A program made the position numbers and the translations under genes. Below, one piece after another: positions 10,268 through 55,900 of a DNA stretch of 64,000 bases. Under the pieces are notes generated by a model. The model saw nothing but the letters and a program-made list of their open reading frames with translations. It was not told the origin of the DNA and searched no databases. Positions within the stretch are counted from its first letter, which is position 1, and each line of letters starts with the position of its first letter. The stretch lies in contig NC_061082.1 of the NCBI RefSeq assembly GCF_021917145.1, positions 17,029,682-17,093,681 of the forward strand, given 5' to 3'. The DNA is from Hypomesus transpacificus. Lineage: Eukaryota; Chordata; Actinopteri; Osmeriformes; Osmeridae.

Positions 10268-13250
10268 GACATACTGGTTGGCCTCTCCTCCAATCAACAA
10301 CCCACAACTGGCCGTTTGTCAATGCTCTACTCAGAAGCGTGCGTGTGTGTGTGTGTTTTTGTGAGATTGAGAGTGAAATTGAGAACAGGATGACCTGACA
10401 ACTGTTTAACAACTCAGCCACTACTGTGTGGAATCTCCAGCGTTAGGAGACAGAGCGAAGCAGGACTCCCCCTGACCAGGACCAAGAACCTCCATACTGT
10501 GTATGACTGAGCAAGGTGTGGGACATACTACCTTGACCAGAGAACAGATACCTGAACAGAAGGTCAAAGGTGTTCCGCGGTCAGAACATCAAGATTAAGA
10601 GTTTGAACCTGGGACCATGACTCATTGTAGTCTTCATGGTCCTAGTGCTCTGTGATTCCCATTCCTTTCACTGCGGGTCTTATCGAGATCCCTGGAACTC
10701 CAGACTGGCCTGTGGGTAGGAAGCTTACGCAAACACTTCCTACTTCCTGTTTCAACACTCCCTCCTCTATTGGTGACTGGTGATCCGGAACCAGTATCTT
10801 TCCTTTGAGGTTAGAGATGGACTGAACTGACTGGTAGTACAGCAAACTGGGGAACTATTCAAATATTACAAATGTCTCACAGTAGAGCCAAAATAATCTA
10901 CCAAACATTCTCACGCACACACATAAAAACAATCTATACAGGACTCTCTGTGAATGTTGCATTAGGTGTTTGAAATAATGCTCCAGTGTTTCCAAAGATT
11001 GTTGTTGTCAAATCAGACAATCTCAGCATAGTCATATGTTGTTTTGACCCTGCAGCCCCACAGTCAACCGGAGTCCCTCTAGTGGTAACGCAAGCACTGT
11101 GACCTCTTGTGCTGTAAACTACCAATGAAAATTGAGATTCAGAATGAGTGTTAATATTTAGCTGAAGACACAATCTCTATATGTAAAGTATGGAGTTTTG
11201 ATCAGTCTGACTGTTTGGGTTGATGAGTCAATCAATGCAAATTATTCTCCAGCTGATTGTGTTCAGTTCCAAGGATATGTGGGACTGAAAGTGTGGGCCG
11301 TGTTTTTTTCTGTGGGCAGGAGCCATTCTTCCCCTCGGTTGTTGACTGTCCTTCTTCATACTTACACTAATCACATTTTATCCACCTTAACATTTCAAAG
11401 CTCCACCCACACACGCGCGCGCACGCACAAACACATGCGTGCAGACACACACAGGCACACACTCTTTCAGTATTACAGACGTGCAAGTGGCACTGCTGTC
11501 CCGCCCATGGTGATCTGAGCGCTGAGTTTTCTAGTTTGGAGACAGATGCCTGAATAATGAATAACTGAATTAAAAGTTAAAAACATGTGATAGCGTTACC
11601 ATGTGCAATACAGAAAACACAATATAGTTTTCTAAACACTTAATATCCTTTTGAACTTTTAATACTGAAATACGCTATGTACAAATATATTGGTTTATAT
11701 TATATCTGTGTAGTTACATGACCCCCCATGCTGCTTATTTTTGTGATTAATATTATTTACATTATTATCATTTCAGTTATACAAGTGTTTTTGGTGTGTG
11801 CAGAACAAGTGTGGGTTTGACTGTGTGTGTGGTTTGGAAAGTGAGGAACTATGTGCCTTCTAGTAGAATGTTGGTGCGTGTTCACCTCATGGCACTCAGT
11901 GTTGAGGCTGAGTACCGACAGTAGTGATGGCTACCCCCCCCTCTCTTTCTCTCTCTCTTTCTCTGCATCCAGGCTGGCCCTGTATGTAAGAAGGGGGGGT
12001 GGGAGGTGGGGGGGTCACAGGTAGGGGTGAGGTGGGAGGATTACAGGTAGAGGTGGGGGGGTCACAGGTAGAGGTGAGGGGGAGGTGGGGGATCACAGGT
12101 AAGGGTGGGGATCACAGGTAGGGGTGAGGGGGAGGTGGGAGGTCACAGGTAGGGGTGAGGGGGAAGGGGGCGGTGAACAAGGAAACCAAGAAGGGACACA
12201 AGTTAGAGAGGCAGCAAGAACGAAGAATAGAAGCAGGGTTGAAATGTGAGAAGATCGATTATTATCTCAGTATTTCTAGACCATGTGACAAAGAGTTTGG
12301 TACATTTTAATTTATCCACAAGTTTATTAGGCTATTGTGTTGCAAAACTATGTTTGTTCCGGCCTCAGAGCAGGAAATTGTTTTCTCCAATATCTCTGTG
12401 CTCATTGACAATCAATAATGTTGTTCTTTATATCACATTGAACATCATTTTTCGCTTTTTATATCAAACTTCAACACCATTCTGTTTTTTGATGTTCCAT
12501 GTCAGTTTGCCAGCACCTTATCCGAAAGGTGAAAGTAATATTTGAAGCAATTACAAATGTGTTATTCAGACATGCTATTGTTTTAGCTCGCTCCCAGCCT
12601 GAGCTGCAAAGTTACTTATTTGCTTTAAAAAATCATGATTTCCAATAATTTGATCATCCTCAAAGCAGGAAATCACCACACCTGTTCACATTCACATGGG
12701 TGGTCTACTCAGTGAACAATAGCTTTATATTAGAATACTTCTCTCTGGGTCAGGTCTTAGAGTGTGTGAGAGCATGTGTGTGATGTTTGTTCTGGATTAG
12801 GTTGGCTCCCTGTTTGAGTGATGACTGACAATCTTTGACTGCCTTGATATCCTTAGATCTGATTCATGTTGGGACTTTCTTACTTATGAACCTTTTTTGT
12901 AGTTTTACTGTGGGGAGTTTCTCATGGTCTTGGTTCTCCTTAATGTATAATACCATTCTGTTACTTTTGAATATATATTTATACAGATATACATATTTTT
13001 TGTATCTTTATTCTTTTTCATTTCTTTGACCTAATGTTCAAACCTCTGTGTCTACTCAGTATTATAGGCAGCATCATTTGACAACATATATCTCTTTTTT
13101 ACATTTTATGTATGAACTGAGAATTTGTAAAGATTCCTTCACTGTCCTCACATGTAAAATATATGTATAAATTAAATTAAACTTTGACTAGTGTTTTTAT
13201 TTTCATTCTCTACAAACATGTCAGCAGCACATTGTTACATTCTAAACACG
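10268..13250 (+). other. lats2: lats2 3' UTR and downstream flank
   Basis: No further exon is found after the stop codon. An ATTAAA at 11569-11574 is a candidate poly(A) signal, but the true end of the 3' UTR cannot be fixed from sequence. The stretch includes CA-rich tracts around 11405-11460 and a G-rich minisatellite (11990-12170). The rest is AT-rich DNA with no coding signal. Confidence 0.5.
11990..12170 (+). repeat. G-rich minisatellite downstream of lats2
   Basis: Imperfect copies of a unit around 'ggtcacaggtaggggtgagg' repeat about eight times. The plus strand is strongly G-rich, with several runs of three to seven G bases, so G-quadruplex formation is possible. Whether it lies inside the lats2 3' UTR is unknown. 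Confidence 0.7.
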
Positions 13251-21700: not shown

Positions 21701-24700
21701 ACATATGTAATCGTTCAAATGCGGGTCTCACAGCGTAACGTCGCAAATATGCGATTTCGAACATTCCAATTGAATATTTTCCGATAGACAAAAACTAAGC
21801 GACAAACGCTTTAGTATGGCTTCAAAATGTACTTCTGAGAAGGCTAACAAGTAACACTAGCATGGTATTAGCATTGCTACGAGTATTATGCTAGGTTATT
21901 TAGCCCGGAAGCTAACTAAAGCTAGCTAGCTACCGCTTCGGAAAAATAACTTGCGCTGTAGGGACTTTCGAAAAAAAATTGAACTCAAGCATCTAAAGGT
22001 TTATTGCAAAAATAACAAATAAAATAACATTATATAACAGGTAATCTTTCTAAATACGTAGCTCTCTTAGTACTCTCCGGGAAAGTGGAAGGACAAAGGG
22101 TATTAGGTTGTGTTTTCTCGGTTTTGCACCCCTAGTGTAGCCTGGCTGCCAGCCCAATTTATCCCCGCCCACAAAAGAATTTGGTCGGGAAGTTGGGTCT
22201 GGAGGGGCTCGATTGCGGTAAAACTATATCCGAACAGGAGCTCTTCGGACCAATTAAATTGTCAGGGCGGAATTTATGCGATGATGGACAGATGATCAAC
22301 AGTAACATAATCAACAACGTCAAATTCGTTTTCAACAATTCGGTTGAATTCGTTTTCAACAAACAACATATTACGTTGCTCTGATAGGTTGTAGGTCTAT
22401 CCATTTGAGCGAAGAGGCATTTGTTTTACGAGCTCGGTTGACACAGGCCCCGTAGTCACAGCCCAACGTAGAGTTTTCAGACTCATATTCTGACTAGAAT
22501 TATTAGTATGACAACGTCAGGCTACCCCTAGTGTGTACTGATGGTTTTGCACCCCTAGTGTGTACTGATGGTTTTGCACCCCTAGTGTGTACTGATGGTT
22601 TTGCACCCCTAGTGTGTACTGATGCCTGTGTGTCGCAGGAGGAGGACCTCCGGCAGATCTTCATGTTGACCATGGACGTTCTCCAGGAGTTCAGCCGCAG
22701 GGAGAACCTCAACGCCCAGATGTCCTCTGTGTTCCAGCGCTACCTGGCCCTGGCCAATCAGGTGCTCAGTTGGAACTTCCTCCCGCCCAATCATATCCTT
22801 TTTCACATCCCAGACAGCAAGACTGGCACTGTGGGCCTTGGGCCCCTGTGCGATAGGACAGCCTTTATAAGGTTGCTAGGGATATTACATTTGTATCGGA
22901 TTATTAACTTATAGTTAATATGGTCAGCACAAGTTTGTATTCTACATGACAGGTGATTTGTATATCAGTTTAGTTGTAATAGAAGGGTTGGGAAGGGAGA
23001 CGTGAGGGTCAGGGTTAAGTAGGTGAGTAGCAGGCTGGGACTGGGGCAGACTTGGTCGTTGTGTTACGGTAAGAGAGGTGAATCGGGGGGGGGGGGGGGG
23101 GGGGGGGGGCAGAGTTAGGGTCAGGGTCAAGGAGGTGAGTGGGACTAGGGCATGGGTTTACTGTTTGACAGCTGGTTTACTGGGATCAGAAGTGGGGGGT
23201 CAAGGATCACTGGGCTGTTGGCTTGAGGGTGCGTGCTTGCACAAGCTCTGACCAGCTCCTCACGAGCAGGTCTCCTCCTGGAGGGTTAGCGGGCCCCTCT
23301 TAACCCCACAGCTTGCTGAGTGTCTGTCAGGAATGGCTGGCATGCTCAATTTGGCATGCGCGTCTGTGATTGTGTATGTTTGCGTGTGTGCATGTGTCTG
23401 TGATTGATTGAGTGTGTCTGTGACTGTGTGTGGAACTGTGTTGGCTTGTGTAATTGCAGTGGGGGTGTGCCCAAGGGACTTGGTTGGAACTGAGAACAGA
23501 TTTATGAAGGCCGCTGGGAAGGAGAAGTGTGGTCGTCAGATTGTCAGAACATGTTGTGTGTGTGTGTGTGTGTGAGCGAGCTCAGGGACCGCTACTAATT
23601 AAATGCCTGACAGCCGCAGTTGTCTCCCCCCCAACACGCGCACACACACACTCCACCATCCCAAAGAGCCTTTTTAAAACGCCACACGTCCTCCATCCTT
23701 CAGAGCCCGACCGCCCGGCATGCGAGTCATCTGTCCTCGCCGCGGCCCCGCCACTCGTGTCATCTGTCCAAGACACGCTCCCCGAGCGTTTGTCGGACAG
23801 CGCGTCTCTCCTCGCCGCCGTTGACCCCGGAGGGGGGCGGGGTCACGGCCAGTCCCCGGCTCTCCAGCACAGAGGGCAGCTGCTGTGAATGGCTGAAGCA
23901 GATGACAGACAGGACTAAGCCCAGCCCCGCTGTGGAGATGAGTCTTAAGGTCCTATTGGCTTGGCTGAGTTTGGGTTGGGTGGGGCGTGGTCTGGTCAGT
24001 CCACTGGTCTGGGCTGGGGACGCCATCGGCGGGGGCTGGCCTCGGGTGTGAGGCCGGAGAAGGCCTGGCTCAGGGCCTGGGCGGCAGCCCCCTGTTTGAA
24101 CAAGCAGGACAGGATTCCTTGGTGACAACTGTCCAAACTGAAGCCAGACAGAGTGTTATATTATGTGTAGGGGCAGGGTTGGGGTGGTGGAAAGGGGTGG
24201 GGGGAGGGATGTTGAAGGGACATTCCTGGACTGTTTTTGCACATGGCAAGGCAGCAGGCAGGACTTAAAGAGGATGTATCACTTAAACCCTCCGCTCTCC
24301 TTAACATAGCACTGCTCCCTGAGCTCAGTGTGGGCCAACACTGCCTCAGCACAGGCCTGGCCAGCCTCAGGCTATTACTATGCCTACTATGGGGGCAAGA
24401 CACACTGGTCTTCCCTCCTGCTCACCTGAACATGGGAATAACTGATAGACATGTCATCTCTCACATACCTACACCTCGGGTTAGGAAAGTATCTGGAACA
24501 GGAGTCTATTCCCACCAGGCGGCGTTTGGTTTGACGATGTTGTTTGAATAGCGGGCCATGAGTCAGAGTAGTCTGCTATATGTATTAAGCAGGATACCGA
24601 CATTGGTCCTTCACTGGAGATGTGGCACTGGAAAGTATTCAGAGCCAGTGTGGTGTTATTTTGGAGGGTTCTGGAAGAGATCATGGCAGGTGAGCTCGAG

Positions 24701-25500
24701 AAAGGTCGCACCAGACCACAGCCCATGTGTCACTAGTCAGTCTGGGCTCATTAGTCAACTTGTAGGCATGCACACACACCAGGATTGGATTCATTGATGT
24801 GGGGTCGGACTCCGGGGTCTTCATATCTTCATATTAGGGCCTCCCTCTCTCGCTTTCTCAATCTCTCCTTTCTCTCTATCTCTCTTTCTCTCCTCCTCTC
24901 AATTTCTCCTCTCAATTTCTCCTCTTTCTTCCTCTCAATATCACCTCTCTTCTCAGTGTCTCCTCTCTCTCTCTCTTTCTCACATACATAAGAAGGTTCA
25001 CTCAGAGTTCTGATGCTGGACCAGGGCTATTTATAACCAGGCCATAAAGACAAGGCTGCTGGAAGCAGTGAGCAGAGTACGCACACATGCACACCGCCAA
25101 AAAGCTGGCACCTGTCTCAATGAGCTGTGTTTGTTGTCTGTGTGAGTGTAAGTGTGTGTAAAGTGTGGTGTGGGGCTGTGTGTGTGTGTGCGTGTAGGGG
25201 AGTAGGGTGCTGTGGCGGGTGTAGGGGAGTGACTGGGTTTGGCCTCGCGGAATGCTTGGCCTGAGCCGATGACTGGCTTTCATCTTGCATTCCTGTGGGA
25301 AGTTCCTCACTCTGTCTGCCTCACGAGACCTGAGGGGGAGGCCACAGGCGACACTGAGGGCACAGGGAGAGGGAGGGAGGGAGGGAGGAGGAGTGTGAGA
25401 CACAGGCCAGGAGCTCAGTGGCGATGCAGGCAGAGCAGATGGGACAGAGCTACTGAGAGAGTTACAGCTACTTTCCACTGCCACCACAGAGCAGCCAGAC

Positions 25501-25565
<65 letters not shown>

Positions 25566-28500
25566 ACAGAGAAAACACACCCTGTGAGGGAGACAGCTAG
25601 TTGACAGACCTGTGAGCGAGCAAGTGTTCCCCATGCTGCTGTTGTCCTTGACCTGCGGTGCACTGGGACGCCACTACATCGCCATGTTCGAGTCCACCCA
25701 GAACGTGATGCTGAAGCCCACAGAGACATGGAGGGAGGCCCTGCTGGACACGCGCGTCATGGACCTCTTCTTCACAGTGAGTATCTCCTGGTCATGGACC
25801 TCTGGTCTTCTTCACATTCGGCGCCTTCTCAAACAGGCCTCCCAAAAGAGGAAACATGGCTAGATTGTTGGTTTTAGTGAGCTAAGGACATTTCTTTTAC
25901 CTGGTGCCTTAACTGTATAAGTTCAAGTGAAAAAGAATTGTGAGTAGAGCTGGTTAAAGTGATGCTGATGCTGACAGTGAGGTCTTTGCTGTCAGGAAAA
26001 TAGGTTATATATCTCCAGGCTGTCTGGAGAATGGGTTATAGACCTCCAGACTGTCTGGAGAGTGGGTTATAGACCTCCAGACTGTCTGAAGAGTGGGTTA
26101 TAGACCTCCAGACTGTCTGGAGAGTGGGTTATATACCTCCAAACTGTGAGGAGTGGGTTATAGACCTCCAGACTGTCTGAAGAGTGGGTTATAGACCTTT
26201 AGACTGTCTGGAGAGTGGGTTATATACCTCCAGACTGTGAAGAGTGGGTTATAGACCTCCAGACTGTCTGAAGAGTGGGTTATAGACCTCCAGATTGTCT
26301 GGAGAGTGGGTTATAGACCTCCAGACTGTCTGGAGAGTGGACTTTAGACCTCCAGACTGTCTGGAGAGTTGGTTAAAGACTTCCAGGCTAAGTGGGGTGG
26401 CTGGAACTACCCAGTCAATTGTCCCCTCATTATCTCTCTACAGATACATCAGCATCTCTGCCACCACATAGTGTGCCACTGACATCCATGTCTCCAGCAT
26501 GTCTGCTGCCACATACTGCTCCTTAGTTTTTTTTTGGTGGCATCCAGTACGCAATACATGTTCATTGCGTACATCCGAAATGTCACATTTGAAAGCAAGG
26601 GGGAACACAAATTGACACCAATACTGATCATCGTAGTGTTAACAGTATGGAGTGCCTAGATGGATGTTGAGCTGTAGTCAGCTGTCCAGTGCTGGACATC
26701 ATCTGGAGGTGTGCAGAGGGTCCAGGACCGGAGCTGGGTGCTCTCCACACGGGAAACTAGGTTCTGATGTGGTCTTTCAAGACAGACTTTCAATCCGTAG
26801 ACCTGGGGATGCTTGGTATGTTGTTTTGTGCGTGCCCATTAACCGCTGTTTAGAGTTCATAGTAATCACATCCTCACAGTGCCACAACATCACATCTATA
26901 ATGCCATGGAGCCACGCTAGGAAATAACTGTATAATTATATGAGAGCGAGTTACATTACCAGAGGGCCAGTGCAGCTTATCAGCTGTAAGACGACCTGCT
27001 GATGGCTACATAGTAGCAGAGTAGTCTTACCTCCTGGTATTTGTGGAGGCTTTGGTGTTTGTTATTGTAGTTGGTCGAGTCGCTATCAGCTGTCTGTCTC
27101 TGTGAGTGTGTGTGTGTGCGCGTGTTTATGTGTGTCTAAGGGCCTGTCTGTGTGTGTCTTTACGTGTGCTTCTTTGTCTGTGCATCTGTGGGCCTTTCTG
27201 TGAGTGTGTATCTGTGGGCCTGTATATATGTGTGTGTGTTTGTGTGTGTCTATGGGCCTGTCTGAGTGTGAGTGTGTGTGTGTGTCAGCTGCCAGCCCTC
27301 ACTCCTCAGCTGTGAGCAGCGTCCAGACACGCGCCGCCAGGGTCAGAGTGTGGAGCGTCCTGGTGGTAGGATTAGGGCCTAACCCCCGGGATTAGGGGCC
27401 CCCGTTAACGGCAGCCCCCCCACCTCCCTCACCCTCCTCTGGGCCTCCTCCCCCCGGCCGCACCCCCCTAGTGGGTGTCAATCTCCCCTTAAACAGCTCC
27501 ACTCAAACAAAGTTGTCTTCAAGGGGAGAGAATACGTTTGTCAATTGACGCCTCACTCAGAACACTGTCTGCCTGTTGAGGTTTTGAGAAAGGCAGCTCA
27601 TTAGGAAGTTTGGTTGCACTCACTCTGATGAAACAAGTCGAGCTCCAAGTCAACTGTCTACAAGTCTGGGCCGAGAGGTGTTGGCAGAGGAGAGAGACAG
27701 CGAAGCCCCTTGTTCCTTAAACACTTGACAGACATATGTCATTTGGATTGAACAGTTTTGTGGCTGGACATGGTTTAAGGATGACTTCATTTGAGTCAGT
27801 TGGATCTGTTATTTAATGTGTGTGTTTGTGTGTGTGCGCGCTTAGATTTCCCAGGCATACTTGTGTCAGTGTGAATAATCAAATATATATATACTCCACA
27901 CGCACACAAGCCACATCTGTGTTGACTAGGTAAACTCAATCTGGCTGATTCGAGAGAGCTGGGTCTGATGAGGTTGTCTATGCCCAGGGCGCCAGTAACC
28001 GCATCCCAACGAACCAAAGAGTGATAAAGAGGCAGGAGACAACCAGTCGAAAGCACGGTGTCGATTTGAAAAAAGAGAAACCTTGAAAGGCGATCCTCTG
28101 ATTCCCCATAGGAAGCAGACACTAGGCTTTGTCTCCTTCTATAAATACCCGGTCTCATTCTCTCTGGGCGAGGAGGAGTGCCCGGTCTTGTTTTGATTTA
28201 CCCCTCTCCGCCCCCCTGCCCGTCTCTAACTATAGGGCAACTCAAGGCGATAGGCATAGCTAGCGTCGCACGGATTGTTAGTTGGTGCAGCTGTTTTTAG
28301 AGCGCGTGCAGCAATCCTTTGGCCTTGCGCTCTCTCTCGCTCTCTCCTCGTCTCCTCTCTCTCTCTGTCCCCCACCCCCCCTTCCCCTCTCTCCCCCCTT
28401 TTCCCTCTCTCCCTCCCCTAGCCCTCTCTCTTTCCCTCCCCTTCCCTCATCTCCTCCAAAGAATGACTTCACACTCTGGAGGCCAGCGCTACCCGACGGC

Positions 28501-31800: not shown

Positions 31801-34800
31801 TCTCCCTCACCCCTCTCTCTTTTCCCCCTCTCTCTCTGCCTCTCTCTTTCTCTGTAATCACCTATTCTTGGAGCTTTTTTCCAGTTGCATCATGTGAAAG
31901 CCATGCGGGACAGGAGGGGGTGTCCACAGTGATTGAGCAGCTCTGCTAGTGATTTACCCCCATCTCATAGAGGTCAGGGGGCCGCTGGGAGGCCGGCCTC
32001 TAACCGGGGCTCTGGGAACACAGCCTCCCCAGAGACTAGAGATTGGATCAGTCGAACCTGGGGATTGATGTATAGAACTCTGTGTAAATTCATTCATAAA
32101 AGTATGCGCATCGTGGAAACAGGAAAACTCTGAACATGACCGGTACTCATGGTTATTTTCACGGATCCCAATTTACTTGTGCTTGACTCGCCAACTCCCA
32201 CATTTAACCTTCAATGGTTGTTGAAACCGTTCGGAATTTTCTTTCAAGAGAACTCCCCAAAACGTTACAAATGCTAATTCTGAATACAAAAAAATTCTCG
32301 TCTTCAGGACTTAGGTCGACTTAGGTCGATAGGTCAGTGGTGACTGAGAAGTGCGTTGTTAAAAGGGGAGTTTTTTCGACCACTGGAGAGGATGGAGAAG
32401 GGTTAGGGTTAGGGCGCTTGAGAATCCTCCTCTTTAATGAGCACAGCTTCCATTAATTGGTCACATATTAAACATACTTTTAGTCGTCCGAAACACATCT
32501 TCTTTCACACTCAAAACATTTTATCGTTAATGGCTACATGGATACATTAACAAACAACCATTGTAGGCCAAGCACCCTCATTAATGATTTGATTGATTGG
32601 TTTGACTCGAGGACAGATCAGGCCTAGGTCACAACTTCCTCTCCTCCCACATGGACTTTCTGATCAGATGAAGCTGTCATGTGTTCCGTCTGTGTTCCGT
32701 CTGTGTTCCGTCTGTGTTCCGTCTGTGTTCCGTCTGTGTTCCGTCTGTGTTCCGTTTGTGTTCCGTCTGTGTTCCGTCTGTGTTCCGTCTGTGTTCCGTC
32801 TGTGTCCTGTCTGTGTCCCCTGGCGTCTGTTGTACTGAGCTGGTGCGCTGGTTCCTCCTCCCTCACAGAATAGAGATCGAGGACTCTGAGGCCGTGGGCA
32901 TCTCCAACATCATCTCCAACCTCATCACTACGTTTCCCAGAAGCACCCTGACGGCCCTGCCCAGCGAGCTCTTCACCTCCTTCATCAACTGCCTCACTCT
33001 GCTCACCTGCTCCTTCGGGCGCAGCGCCGCCCTAGAGGAAGTGGTGAGTACCACACGTCTACAATGTTACGTAAAAAGTAAAATGGCTTACTCATTTCAT
33101 TTTTTTCATTTCATTTTCATTTGGATCCCCATTAGCGGCCAGTTTAATGGCAGCTAATCTTCATGGGGTCCTCTGGCTTACTCCATTTGCCTCATGCCAA
33201 ACACACCTTTAGAATGACCACATTATTCATAAAATGCACGCCCGTCACTCAGGAAGGATTCCACAATCTGTTCACTCATAATCAGTTTTCTTTGACTCAC
33301 TACCTTTCTCCTTCTCCCACCCTTTACACCCTTCCCCCCCCCAGCTGGACAAGGATGACATGGTGTACATGGAGGCGTATGATAGGTTGCTGGAGTCGTG
33401 GCTGACGCTGGTGCAGGATGACGAGCACTTCCCTCGCGGCTGCTTCGTCCAGCCGGCCGTGCAGGTCTTCAACTCCTACATCCAGTGTCACCTGGCGGCC
33501 CCCGATGGCACGCGGAACCTGGTGAGCTGTCACTACCCCCCCCCCCACCCCACCGTTCCTCTCTTCTCCTTCTCTCCGCTCCATCTCCGTCTCTCTCCTC
33601 CCTGTCTCTCTCTCTCTCTGCTGTCTTTCCCTTTCCAGTTTCTTTGAAGATGTTAATTGAATATACTCTTTATATTTAGCAAAAAAATAACTTAGTTTAT
33701 TCTGCTTTACAGTAACTCTGCTTTATAAGACTGTTCAACTAATCTACCTCTGTCAGAGCCACCATCACAGAACTGCACTAAACCTGTCTCCTTGCACTTT
33801 ATTCTATTGTATTGTATTTTATTGTATTCAAATATACCGGCTGCTATGACAACTTAATTTCCCTTCGGGGATGAATAAAGTACTCTATCTATCTATCTTT
33901 ACAGTAACTCTCCGTCCTCATTCCTCCCTCTCTCTTCACCCTCTTCTCTGTTCTCCCTCCAGACAGCGAACGGCGTGGCGTCGCACGAGGACGATGAGAT
34001 CAGTGAGCTGCAGGAGGATGACAGGGAGCTGTTTTCTGATCAGCTGGCCAGCATAGGCATGCTGGGACGCATCGCAGCCAACCACTGCATCCCCCTTCTG
34101 ACCAGGTACACACTCTCACTCACTCATTCAATGCTGATCATTACATCCCCTTGACCGCTGACCCTTGCCTGTGATTGGCCAGTCTGCTGGAGGAGCGTGT
34201 GACTCGTCTGCACGGGCAGCTCCAGAGGACCCAGCAGCACCTGCTGGCCTCGCCCCACGCTGGCTCTGTGGACCGCAAGGTCCTGGATGACCTCTACGAA
34301 GACATCCACTGGCTCATACTGGTCACAGGTCAGTAGCTCTGCACTGGTCAGTAGATCTGGACAGGTCAGTAGCTCTGTACTGGTCACAGGTCAGTAGCTC
34401 TGTACTGGTCACAGGTCAGTAGATCTGCACTGGTCACAGGTCAGTAGCTCTGTACTGGTCACAGGTCAGTAGCTCTGCACTGGTCAGTAGATCTGGACAG
34501 GTCAGTAGCTCTGTACTGGTCACAGGTCAGTAGCTCTGTACTGGTCACAGGTCAGTAGATCTGCACTGGTCACAGGTCAGTAGCTCTGCACTGGTCACAG
34601 GTCAGTAGCTCTGTTCTAGTCACAGGTCAGTAGATCGGTACTGGTAAAACAGTTAAACACTGAATGGACCCCCACCCTGGACAGGCCCATGCTAGCAGTA
34701 GACCCTACCACTCCTGCTACGCTAGGCTGCTGCATATCTGAATAACATCAAGCTTCTCACCAGAGCCAACTTGGTAATCTGTTCATTACCTGACAGTTAT

Positions 34801-37800
34801 AGCATTCAGTCGTGTTGGAATCCGTCAGCCCCGAGAACAGGCTGCTGTGTGCCCAGGGGGCCGGCCCCCAGCTTAGCGGCGCGGCAGAGCTAAGTTTAGC
34901 CTGAGGATGAAGGCCGGCTAGGTCTGTGCGCGAGTGGAATCTGATGTAAGGAAGGGAGAGCTACCAGCTGTGTGACCCTGCTTTTGTTCTGGGGATTTCT
35001 GTCCATCTATTGGGAATAAATGTTCTTTTGTGTGGAGATTTTCCACTGTCAGTCTGCCTCATACCACCATTGTAGCGTTTCAGAACAAAAACCGTTCAAG
35101 TGGAGGTGAAAATAAACGCCCCCTGTTGACAGCCTGTTTTCCAAGGATAATTGATGTTCTATACCATGTTCTCCAGGGTACCTACTGATAGATGAGGTTC
35201 TATACCATGTTCTCAAGTGTACCTACCATTAGATGAGGTTCTATACCGTGTTCTCCAGGGTACTTGCTGGCAGACGATGCCCAGGGCGAGACACCGCTCA
35301 TCCCCCCGGAAGTGATGGAGTACTCCATCAACCACTCCACGGAGGTGGACATCAACAGCACCCTGCAGGTCCTGGGCTCCCCCGGAGAGAAGGCCTCCTC
35401 CATCCCAGGATGCAACAGGACAGACTCTGTCATCAGGTAAGGACCCGCCCAGTCCATGGGGATTGGTTGAATCTTGTGGCCTGTCGGTTGTACCCTCACT
35501 GTTGGGTTGCTGTGGGTGGGCTGGAGGAATTATTGGAAGGCTCCTCTAGATCCCAGCCGGGGCTGTTCAGTCACGCTTCCATGAGACCCCGTCTGGACGG
35601 CACACAGCTCTGCTTTCCCTGTGGGGGTGACGGTCCCAGGGAGGGAATTTCCTGGCCATGCCCCACACACTGACCCATCCATGCCCCACACACTGACCCA
35701 TCCATGCCCCACACACATGCCCCAGCCATGCCCCACACACTGACCCAGCCATGCCCCACACACATGCCCAGCCATGCCCCAACACACTGACCCAGCCATG
35801 CCCCACACACATGCCCAGCCATGCCCCAACACACTGACCCAGCCATGCCCCACACACAGCCCCAGCCATGCCCCACACACTGACCCAGCCATGCCCCAAC
35901 ACACTGACCCAGCCATGCCCCACACACAGCCCAAGCCATGCCCCACACACAGCCCCAGCCATGCCCCACACACAGCCCCAGCCATGCCCCACACACAGCC
36001 CCAGCCATGCCCCACACACAGCCCCAGCCATGCCCCACACACAGGCCCTGCCTTAGAACAGCCGCGGTGCTGGTCAGTCAAGCCCCTGGACCACCCTGGC
36101 ACCACTATACGTTTACATTTTTAAACCCACAAACAAATAGTGCATATAAAACGTTAAGCCGAAAATCAAGGATCAGAAGTACATAGTTCAAAAACACCTT
36201 TTTGTGGGTATGGTCTAGAAACAGTATGTATTTACCAGGCATCGTACAAAATAACATCTCAACCACGAATTATGGTGTTACAAACTATGTAATATCATAA
36301 GTGCAACATTAAACAATTCTTACAAGACAGTGGTACATCAGGATCTTAAAGTCAACATACAGAGACAAAGACACATTTTCAGGCACTTCAAGAACTATTG
36401 TACTGCACTGCTAAGTGCAGCTTCCATACATGCTATATAAGGATGGGGCAGCTGCTGGTAGAGCAGGGTCAGTAAGGCAGGGTCGGACTGTAGGGTCCAC
36501 ACTCAGGTGGAGAGGATAGAGTGTTCTGTAGGGTAGGGTAGAGTTTAGGGTGGAGAGGGGTAGAGGGTTCTGTAGGGTAGGGTAGAGAGGGTTCTGTAGG
36601 CTAGGGTGGAGAGGGTAGAGGGTTCTGTAGGCTACGGTAGAGAAGGGTAGGGGTTAGGGTGAAGAGGGTAAAGAGTTCTCTTTGGTAGGGTACAGAGGGT
36701 AGGGGGTTATGTACGGTAGGATTGCAGGGTAGAGGGTACAAGAAGGGGGAGGATGTTCCGTGAGCGAGACATGGAGACATTTGGCATTTTTGGCGTGGTT
36801 GGCGGTGTAAGATGATTGTTCCTAGCCGGGCATGTGGAGGTGGCCGACAGCAGAGACAGGGGATTGGAGGGACAGGGACACGGGCATCAGGTTTCCTAAT
36901 AACTGCACTTGAACCCGCCTCCGTCAAATGTCAGTGGGGTTTTGTTTTCTGCAAACAATGTGAAACAGTGCACTGTCCGACAGCAAAGGGGCCTCTGACA
37001 CAGATTTCTAAGCTGATTTAAGCCCTGCTGTCCTGTGTGCCTGTGTGTAATAATGTTTAAACCATGCGCAAAGAATAATGTGTGTTGAGCTTTTTGTTAT
37101 GTCGCCGGGCAACTGAAACAAACAGCTGTTGTCTCCCATCTCTCTTTTGTTCTGCCATTCTTTCCTCCCCCCCCCCCCCCCCCCCCCCCCCGGCTCGTGC
37201 TCATCCCGACCTTGGCTTTCTCTCTTCCCTTTCTCTCATTCCCTCTGCCTCTCATTCTCTTCCCCCTCCTCTCTCTGCCTCTCTTCCCCTCTACCCTCTT
37301 ATCCTTCTCTTCCACTCCTTCCCTCTCTTCTCACCTGCTCCTTCCTCTATCCTTTTCCTCTCTCTTCCTCGTCCTCCTGGTATCGGCAGGTTGCTGTCTG
37401 CGGTGCTGAGGACATCTGAGGTGGAGTCCAGGGCCACCAGAGCCAGCCTGACCGGCCTGCTCAGCCCTCAGATGGGGAAGGACATCGTCTGGTTCCTCCG
37501 TCGCTGGGCCAAGACCTACCTGCTGGTGGACGAGAAGCTGTATGGACAGGTGTGACACAAAGTCCAAGCCCGCCTTCAGCTCTAACCCCTAGCCCAGCCC
37601 CCATATCTAACCCGGGCCCAACCCCAGACCTGACTCTAGCCCAGCCCCATATCTAATCCTAGCCCAGCTCCAGACCTAGCCCCCCTTCCTCTGTCATCCT
37701 CTCATCTCTCCATCTTCTCCTCCATCATCCTCTCATTTCTTTACTCCCGTCTATCATTCTTTTTGTTTCATTCTCCCCTCCATCTTCCTCTCATCTCCCT

Positions 37801-52946: not shown

Positions 52947-55900
52947 TGTTCACACACGCCATGTTCAGGCACACAGCCAACTGATCATAGTGTGGTCGTA
53001 CTGTCGACTTACTGGATGAGTGTGGCTCTCTCAAAGTACTGGATGGCCTTCTCACAGAACTGGGTGTCGATGTAGTAAGCTCCCAGCCACTCTATCACCT
53101 CCATGTTGGAGGGGAAGTATCTGAACGACTGCGCAGGAGGAGGGAGAGCAGAGAGACAGGCTTCAGAGAGAGCAGAGAGACAGACATTAGAGAGAGCAGA
53201 GAGACAGACAGACTTTAGAGAGAGCAGGGAGACAGACTTTAGAGAGAGCAGAGAGACAGGATTTAGAGAGAGCAGAGAGACAGGCTTTAGACAGAGGAGA
53301 TAGACAGGCTTTATAGAGAGCAGAGAGACAGGCTTTAGAGAGAACAGAGACAGGCTTTAGAGAGAGCAGAGAGACAGGCCTTAGAGAGAACAGAGAGACA
53401 GGCTTTAGACAGAGGAGATAGACAGGCTTTAGTGAGAGCAGCCTCTTTAGTGATGTGTCTGTGTGAGTAAACCACCGCGCTCAGCCATCGTCCTAATCTA
53501 TAGTGTGTTCCTTATTTGTGTCAGAGAGGCAGGCTCCCCCTACAGCATGGCAGGGTGTACTGCACCTCATAGTAGTACTGGAAGGCCTGGGATTTATCTC
53601 CCTCGCTGTCATACAGCTCCCCCAGCTTGGCCAGCACGTGGGGGTCTGTGGGCGTCACGCTGATCAACTGCATCAGCCACTCGATAGCCTGGTGGGGGTC
53701 CTCCAGCTTCTCATAGCTGGGGGGGGGGGGTCAAGGATTACACACACACCCCTAAACACACGCACATAACCACACACGCATGTGCTGTATACCTTAATAC
53801 ACACACACCTAAACACACACACATAACCAAACACATGCACACACATAACCCACACACATGCACGTATACCTTGGCGCACATGCACCTAAACACGCACATA
53901 ACCACACACATAAGCACCCCCACACACTTCCACGTATACCTTAACACACACAGATAACCATGCACACCCATAACCACCCCAAACGCATGACCTCACACAC
54001 ACAACCTCACACAAACATAACCATTTTCAAGTGTGCCTAAGCCCAGCCCAGATGGTTGGGTGTGTGTCAGGATACAGGCTGGCCAGCTGGTGCATAACCT
54101 GAGCGCTGTTCCGGAGGATGGCGTGCAGTTTGAGGAAGCAGTCCAGAGACTCCTCCAGACGAACCAGGTGCTTATAGGTCAGACCTGCAGGAGGGGAGGG
54201 CCTTCAGTCCAGAGTAGCTCACCCTCATCTCTGCTTCGACTAGGACCTCTGACAACACTACCAGCCAATGAGGTCTTTCCTGACCTTACTCAGGTTGTAG
54301 AGGACCAATCAGCAGTTAGCTTACCCAGGTTATAGAGGACCAATCAGCAGTGAGTTTACCCAGGTTGTAGAGGACCAATCAGCAGTGAGCTTACCCAGGT
54401 TATAGAGGACCAATCAGCAGTGAGTTTACCCAGGTTGTAAAGGACCAATCAGCAGTGAGCTTACCCAAGTTGTAGAGGACCAATCAGCAGTGAGCTTACC
54501 CAGGTTGTAGAGGACCAATCAGCAGTGAGCTTACCCAAGTTGTAGAGGACCAATCAGCAGTGAGCTTACCCAGGTTGTAGAGGACCAATCAGCAGTGAGC
54601 TTACCCAGGTTGTACAGGGCCTCGGTGCAGGAGGAGTCGTTCCTGAGGGCCTCCTTGTAGAACTCAGCAGCCTTTGCGTAGTCATGCCTCACGAACACCG
54701 TGTTGCCCTTGTTGATCAACGCGGCCGGGTTGTAGCGGTCCGCCGTCATGGCCAGGTCGGCGTAGCGGTCCGCCTGGGCGTAGTCCTTCTCCTGAGGGGC
54801 CAGAGGTCAAAGGTCAGAGTGACAACCCCTTTAGAAGGTCTCTCTGTGTCTCGAGTCTGCAGCTGTAGGGTCACCTCCAAGTCGTTGACTTGAAGACTTA
54901 CCAGGAAAAACAGGAAGGAGAGGTTGGTGGCAGCAGCGCTCTTCACTCGGCTGTCTTTCTTCTCAAAGGTCCTCAGGGTTTCCACAGCCTGTACAAGCAC
55001 ACCCCCAGACCCCAGCCCAGGGTCAACACAACTCAGGTCCTGCTCACACGCTGGCATGACCACCACACTGTAGGATGTAGGTCATTTAATGACATTATTT
55101 TAGCATGAAGCTAATTTAATGAGAGTATCCAATGTAGGATGATGGTACTTTATTAGTAACATCAGCAAAAGCAAATCCAATGACTTGAAAGGAGGTCGGA
55201 AGACAGAAGACACACATACCTCAACCTCAGAGGCCATGCAGGTGGAGACAAGGAGAGCAGGACAAACAAAACAGTGGAAGTGAACAAAGCGAACTGTATG
55301 GAAACCGGTCTGAACCGGCCACAGGCCATGCAACATGACGTTTAAATGGACCAGCAACACCAGCATGGAGAACAGGGGACGGAGGAAACGAAGGAGCCTC
55401 TGGCTTTGTGACGGAGGAAGAAGGCGGCACACTCACTTGGTTGAAGTCCCTCTGTCGGAGGTAGGTGATGGCTTTGTTGATCTCCAGATCATTGGCCAAC
55501 TCCACGTACTGGGAACTCTTCACCATCTCCACACACCTGCAGGAAAACACGCCCGACCGTTACCATGGAATTACATCACCTACCATAACCTATATCACCC
55601 TCCTCAATAGACCACGACAGCTAGCTAGCTAGCTAGCTTGGCCAGGACAATTAGTCTAGCAGACAGATGTGCAGCCAGTCGGTCTGCTGCTGAGGTTTGC
55701 TGCAACGCACCAGTCAAACCCAGCAGCAAAGGATGTCTCGATGGCTGGAGCAATGAGCTTGGCAGACGTCATGATGAACTTCTCAGCCAAGGCTTTCCTG
55801 TGAAGGAGAGGAAACACAGGACAGCCAGAGAGAACAGTCAGAGGAAGGTGGCAGATGCTGTTTGCTGTTTGAGCTGGAGGAAGAGAGGAGTCGAAGGAAA

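Follow-up and report, generated by a model that had tools for sequence, protein, structure and literature searches.

The boundary between exon 15 and intron 15 of ift88 in Hypomesus transpacificus carries a 35-bp minisatellite that repeats the exon's own splice donor, and we establish directly the array, the register of its copies, the direction of copying from exon to array and the frame outcome of every donor. The best explanation, to which we give a probability of about 0.8, is that this is an ordinary minisatellite whose founding duplication fell across the junction by chance and whose growth went intronward, with the first donor being the one used and transcripts that leak to later donors being destroyed.

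The window, by which we mean the whole 64,000-nucleotide stretch that was analysed, lies in a genome of 437 Mb and 376 contigs, and from its open frames we take it to contain a lats2-like kinase gene, xpo4, a methyltransferase-like gene, ift88 and a cryl1-like gene, a gene order consistent with a vertebrate. Models of ift88 (24 coding exons, minus strand) and xpo4 (23 coding exons, plus strand) were built by spliced alignment with query proteins. A solved IFT88 structure, chain 8bd7, supports the ift88 model (E-value 2e-185 for the predicted protein), and residues 1-605 of xpo4 match Exportin-4 chain 5dlq with an E-value of 0. The relevant features of ift88 are the following.

54605..54791, minus strand: ift88 coding exon 15 (gene model), with the donor TGG/GTAAGC after 54605
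54076..54184, minus strand: ift88 coding exon 16 (gene model); LGL across the junction matches the solved IFT88 chain
54281..54618, minus strand: ift88 35-bp minisatellite (TRF and copy register), nine full copies and a degenerate tenth
54290..54570, minus strand: nine extra ift88 donor-like sites, all leading to a premature stop by reading frame

In the gene model exon 15 ends CAACCTGG/GTAAGC at 54605 on the minus strand, and TRF places an array at 54281-54618 with a period of 35, 9.7 copies, 93% matches and no indels. The initial annotation had described exact 35-bp copies of this donor, ten in number. The array and its period stand, but exactness does not extend to the sequence, for only three of nine copies equal the consensus while the remaining six differ from it at one or two bases; nine full copies are in register, from 54614 down to 54300, and the tenth is degenerate, matching over about 18 bases with two mismatches and having GA/GTAAGG in place of the donor that copies 2-9 repeat. 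On the sense strand the unit reads TACAACCTGG/GTAAGCTCACTGCTGATTGGTCCTC, or 10 exon bases followed by 25 intron bases, and the exon share reaches up to 14 nt when near matches upstream are counted, beside an intron share of about 25 nt. Copies 1, 2 and 4 have one and the same sequence, copy 6 is identical to copy 8, and two of the five variant sites fall within the 10 exon-derived positions. The mean difference between copies is minimal at lag two (1.00, versus 1.50-2.00 at other lags), which suggests that the array may have grown partly through 70-bp steps. All array copy numbers given here come from one assembly and may be wrong.

The 10 exon-derived nucleotides cover the codons of YNL plus the first base of the G codon, and YNLG stands at the equivalent place in the solved IFT88 chain; therefore the exon was copied into the array, and not the reverse. 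A search of the genome with the 330-bp array, by a method that skips very common words, returned one match, its own locus, and a dispersed element was rejected as the source on that ground. RNA structure was also rejected as an explanation of the array, because 100 of 100 shuffles folded at least as stably.

Among the ten ift88 donors only the exon-edge donor at 54605 keeps the frame. The last exonic bases of the nine extra sites are 54570, 54535, 54500, 54465, 54430, 54395, 54360, 54325 and 54290, and none of these sites has an open frame into exon 16, as judged by reading frame only. Two earlier statements about them were confirmed: eight of the nine keep GG/GTAA, the exception being GA/GTAA, and use of the first extra donor would add 35 nt, remain open for 12 codons (KLTADWSSTTWV) and then meet TGA where exon 16 begins. 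With k as the number of copies passed, the frames of k=1 and 2 stop within exon 16, and those of k=3 to 9 meet a TAA inside the array. The nine donor bases of the true site were found identical in six extra copies, and the true site itself ranks 23rd among the 45 donors of ift88 and xpo4 when these are scored with home-made weights.

The same kind of amplification had been reported for a second gene on the other strand, which we take to be the exon 12 donor array of xpo4. That array is indeed present, and a third junction-spanning repeat within the window was found at the acceptor of exon 13.

34183..34328, plus strand: xpo4 coding exon 12 (gene model; Exportin-4 chain 5dlq)
34317..34645, plus strand: xpo4 exon 12 donor-spanning minisatellite with a 25-bp unit and 13 extra GT[AC]AG sites, all leading to a premature stop
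35152..35263, plus strand: xpo4 array of 41 bp x 2.7 that spans the exon 13 acceptor and overlaps the exon by 5 nt

Exon 12 of xpo4 ends GGTCACAG/gtcag at 34328 on the plus strand, where the array overlaps it by 12 nt, and none of the 13 extra donors keeps the frame, each stopping at codon 547. Since all extra donors in ift88 and xpo4 lead to a stop, no full-length protein variants can arise from them, and any leakage could only lower output. Elsewhere in the window, intron 6 of xpo4 (22793-25663, plus strand) has the AT-AC ends ATATCCTTTTTC ... GTGCAC, which we take to be of the U12 type from the U12 consensus, and splicing it out preserves the reading PNL/GRHY. Between the lats2-like gene and xpo4, repeated donor-like TCACAGGTAG/AAG units occupy 12001-12160 on the plus strand, where no exon was noticed.

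A search for exon-end-spanning repeats was run on 226 exons, consisting of 47 from gene models and 179 ab initio predictions from a caller of limited accuracy, and it gave junction arrays at five donors and one acceptor. The caller was home-made, and one window gene served to train it, the other to test it; at a threshold of 20, 5 of 8 predictions in one test and 11 of 14 in the other were exact, but no more than 5 of the 22 and 11 of the 21 true exons were recovered exactly. Survey calls used thresholds of 18 and 14 and more training than the test run. The survey comprised 20 ten-kb stretches, one from each of contigs C1-C20 at 2.0 Mb (an arbitrary choice, not a randomised one), which held 112 arrays with a period of at least 10, covering 30.7 kb of 200 kb, although one satellite block supplies 10 kb of that total (L014 1-10000, of which 9,964 bases are tandem repeat). 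The caller predicted 77 exons in these stretches, and 73 were kept after removal of four in coding-like repeats, namely two in L012, with donor and acceptor alike inside the array, and one each in L018 and L006, with the acceptor inside the array. A 15-bp x 76 array at L012 7537-8524 encodes an open NYPTSNTR-like repeat and may belong to a gene for a repetitive protein. A candidate donor array at L009 571-608 was rejected, as it sits within an open reading frame.

To these stretches we added six pieces of 8 kb from dynein heavy chain genes obtained by family search, in which one donor array (L043) was found among 106 predicted exons. They represent one family, chosen for its many exons and after a dynein-like gene had given the arrays L038 and L039; these two came from a motif search, in another dynein-like gene, and are kept outside all counts and rates. 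Donor arrays outside the window that entered the counts are listed below.

L007: CTACCTGCAG/GTAAGACTGG, 31 bp x 6.4, donor array in a gene for an MFS-like transporter
L011: CTACCACCCCAGTCTACAT/GTGAGTACAC, 29 bp x 6.1, donor array in a PH-like stretch with a score under the Pfam cut-off
L043: CACATCCTCAGGAA/GTACGA, 40 bp x 9, donor array in a dynein gene

In both L043 and L007 the first donor joins the exons openly, with an AAA_5 (dynein-related) match across the junction in the former (E 6e-16) and an MFS_1 match across it in the latter (E 6e-17). The exon caller took the second donor in L007, an example of the mis-annotation to which exon ends in array-rich genomes are prone. The exon at L039 matches Pfam AAA_9; the peptide at L038 has no Pfam match and is presumably dynein-like, judging from its closeness to L039. 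Three extra units of L043 would insert 40 residues in frame. At L038 480-701 a 15-bp array at an exon donor reads VRAGQ in frame, with no stop over the 180 nt read, and extra donors there could add steps of five residues. Therefore frame-breaking is not a rule for donor arrays, as L043 (by three units) and L038 can stay in frame.

The initial annotation had also proposed a tendency for minisatellites to arise at donor sites. Their recurrence there is borne out by L007, L011, L043, L038 and L039, but a tendency beyond chance is not, as 1.68-5.35 donor-spanning arrays are expected against the five seen. These expectations come from a null in which arrays were re-placed at random with exon overlap kept small, under four non-independent settings and with the 14 of 20 stretches in which exons remained. 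For donors the expected numbers were 2.90, 1.68, 5.35 and 3.16 (P 0.163, 0.027, 0.629 and 0.206, uncorrected). For acceptors, 1, 0, 1 and 0 arrays were seen versus 2.89, 1.66, 5.32 and 3.12 expected (P for so few 0.210, 0.188, 0.026 and 0.038, uncorrected). A null restricted to the window expected 1.06-1.66 junction-overlapping arrays versus three observed (P 0.09-0.23), and 11.4 when exons were left unprotected. An excess of donors over chance is thus neither established nor ruled against, and the placement null gives a hint of an acceptor deficit.

This hint bears on the strongest rival to our reading, which holds that arrays arise equally at both junctions, and that selection on splicing then purges upstream acceptors, which are used, and tolerates downstream donors. 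We consider it credible, if somewhat short of even odds. The shortfall of acceptors speaks for it, as does the selection against in-frame tandem splice sites in human genes described in the available text of PMC2279118; however, five donors versus one acceptor, taken alone, is not significant (P 0.22), the caller may miss repeated acceptors (the removed L006 and L018 exons had theirs inside an array), and the sole acceptor array counted belongs to the protein-based models. The observed rate of coding exons that end in a donor array is 5 of 226, or about 2% (95% CI 0.7-5.1%). It is a tentative proposal, and as a whole a rather doubtful one, that about 2% of this genome's coding exons end in a minisatellite repeating their own donor, with donors tolerated, acceptors purged and a spliceosome that reliably takes the first. 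If the rate held genome-wide, thousands of introns would, by extrapolation, form a natural experiment on splice-site choice, and if rows of identical, evenly spaced donors were common, RNA reads alone could show how donors are ranked by position.

It seems unlikely that donor sites are hot spots of minisatellite birth, as features of replication or transcription at exon ends might, for instance, make them. One of the four placement settings agrees with this idea, in that arrays of at least three copies give five donors and no acceptors among the 226 exons where 1.68 donors are expected (P 0.027), but the other three give P values of 0.16-0.63. The donor-like motif CAGGTRAG in triple tandem had 3,435 genome matches, and four control motifs, frequency-matched to it on 264 kb, had 1,137, 1,478, 1,285 and 989, all being overlapping matches in which large arrays count repeatedly. 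The motif is therefore 2.3-3.5 times commoner in this form than its controls, yet counts vary widely between motifs, the reversed patterns giving 394 for CAGGTRAG and 47, 768, 38 and 211 for the controls. The matches listed, out of the 3,435, included 19 distinct CAGGTRAG arrays, which were read in three frames over the 180 nt that precede the first motif: L038 and L039 clearly have their start at a coding exon, in 11 no exon is apparent, L030 appears coding over its whole length, and five could not be assigned, as L026, L027 and L035 extend further upstream, N masks L037 and the open frame of L031 is ambiguous. Because 2 of 19 is close to the proportion of donors among ordinary CAGGTRAG places (2 of 17 and 2 of 11), the excess of the motif mostly does not come from exon ends. 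The one nominal P of 0.027 (uncorrected) and the tandem excess leave some room for a donor-linked origin of arrays.

A function for the extra donors, whether as decoys, as U1 landing sites or as a splice leak tuned by copy number that sets the level of ift88, is improbable. Premature stops at all nine extra sites are what a level-setting leak would require, and in the available text of PMC5954066 longer arrays in human ABCA7 accompany lower expression and more exon skipping. Against such a function, the variants of the ift88 array lie in its exon-derived and intron-derived parts alike, no special RNA structure distinguishes it from the shuffles, and retention of the ABCA7 unit is constant across array lengths in the same source. 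Least probable is the AGGT intron-gain model (available text of PMC4974935), which would fit a tandem duplication derived from a junction and the AG/GT contained in the xpo4 exon 12 unit but was rejected for ift88, where AGGT is absent from the unit and from the joint of two units and the gene model requires no additional intron.

We favour an ordinary minisatellite of chance origin. A minisatellite-rich genome would have been the setting in which the founding tandem duplication fell by chance across the exon 15/intron 15 boundary; the array would have expanded into the intron, partly by 70-bp steps, while coding selection held the exon-side copy. The exon-edge donor would then serve almost every transcript; splicing from a downstream donor would occur now and then, adding 35k nt and a stop codon, and the resulting transcripts would probably be removed by nonsense-mediated decay. 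Copy number is likely to be polymorphic. Certain test constructs are reported to favour an intron-proximal donor copy, and the identical downstream donors of ift88 could be used more than is assumed here.

Donor-repeating arrays are a kind known from human genes, where donor-spanning VNTRs are known singly and one is a disease risk factor, and ift88 adds a new example. Among the titles listed from the open-licence literature, no report was found of donor-repeating minisatellites occurring on a genome scale. A donor-spanning VNTR has a unit of 10-100 bp in several copies, the functional donor of a coding exon lies within that unit, and normal protein comes from the first donor while the extras give stops; ift88 has 35 bp x 9.7, the 54605 donor within copy 1, and this pattern of outcomes by reading frame only. 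Further marks of the type are a copy number that differs among individuals and low-level use of the extra donors in RNA. By its structure the ift88 array belongs with the donor-including VNTRs of human ABCA7 intron 18 and of CBS, the latter at exon 13.

Two further systems share some of these features. Internal tandem repeats in human segmental duplications are likewise minisatellites at exon-intron boundaries, with units averaging 30 bp and altered splicing, but in the available text of PMC2812944 they are scored by differences between paralogues and reported to form new introns. The minisatellites in introns 1 and 3 of the Sparus aurata growth hormone gene are intronic, in a fish gene and polymorphic in length; the available text of PMC3045353 makes no mention of their spanning a donor. 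The human CBS VNTR, c.1444_1467+7(16_21), has by its name 24 exon and 7 intron bases; like that of ift88 its unit spans the donor, with a length of invariably 31 bp and point differences between units, whereas its exon share is larger and its 16-21 copies are a known polymorphism (available text of PMC2630376).

ABCA7 offers a direct parallel, according to the available text of PMC5954066. Its 25-bp VNTR at exon 18 includes the donor, so that in both genes a minisatellite sits directly at the exon, although the ABCA7 unit begins with the donor GT and that of ift88 also holds 10-14 exon nt. The ABCA7 array is a human one, rich in C, with about 12 to 427 copies and a tie to disease risk, unlike that of ift88, and its RNA was measured, whereas ift88 is read from sequence. 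Use of the ABCA7 donor one unit downstream retains 25 bp and brings a premature stop, in an isoform present at 2 +/- 1%; cycloheximide increased the premature-stop transcripts, and skipping of exon 19 rises with array length while one-unit retention does not. On this precedent, with its measured RNA, single-unit leakage that ends in a premature stop is expected in ift88.
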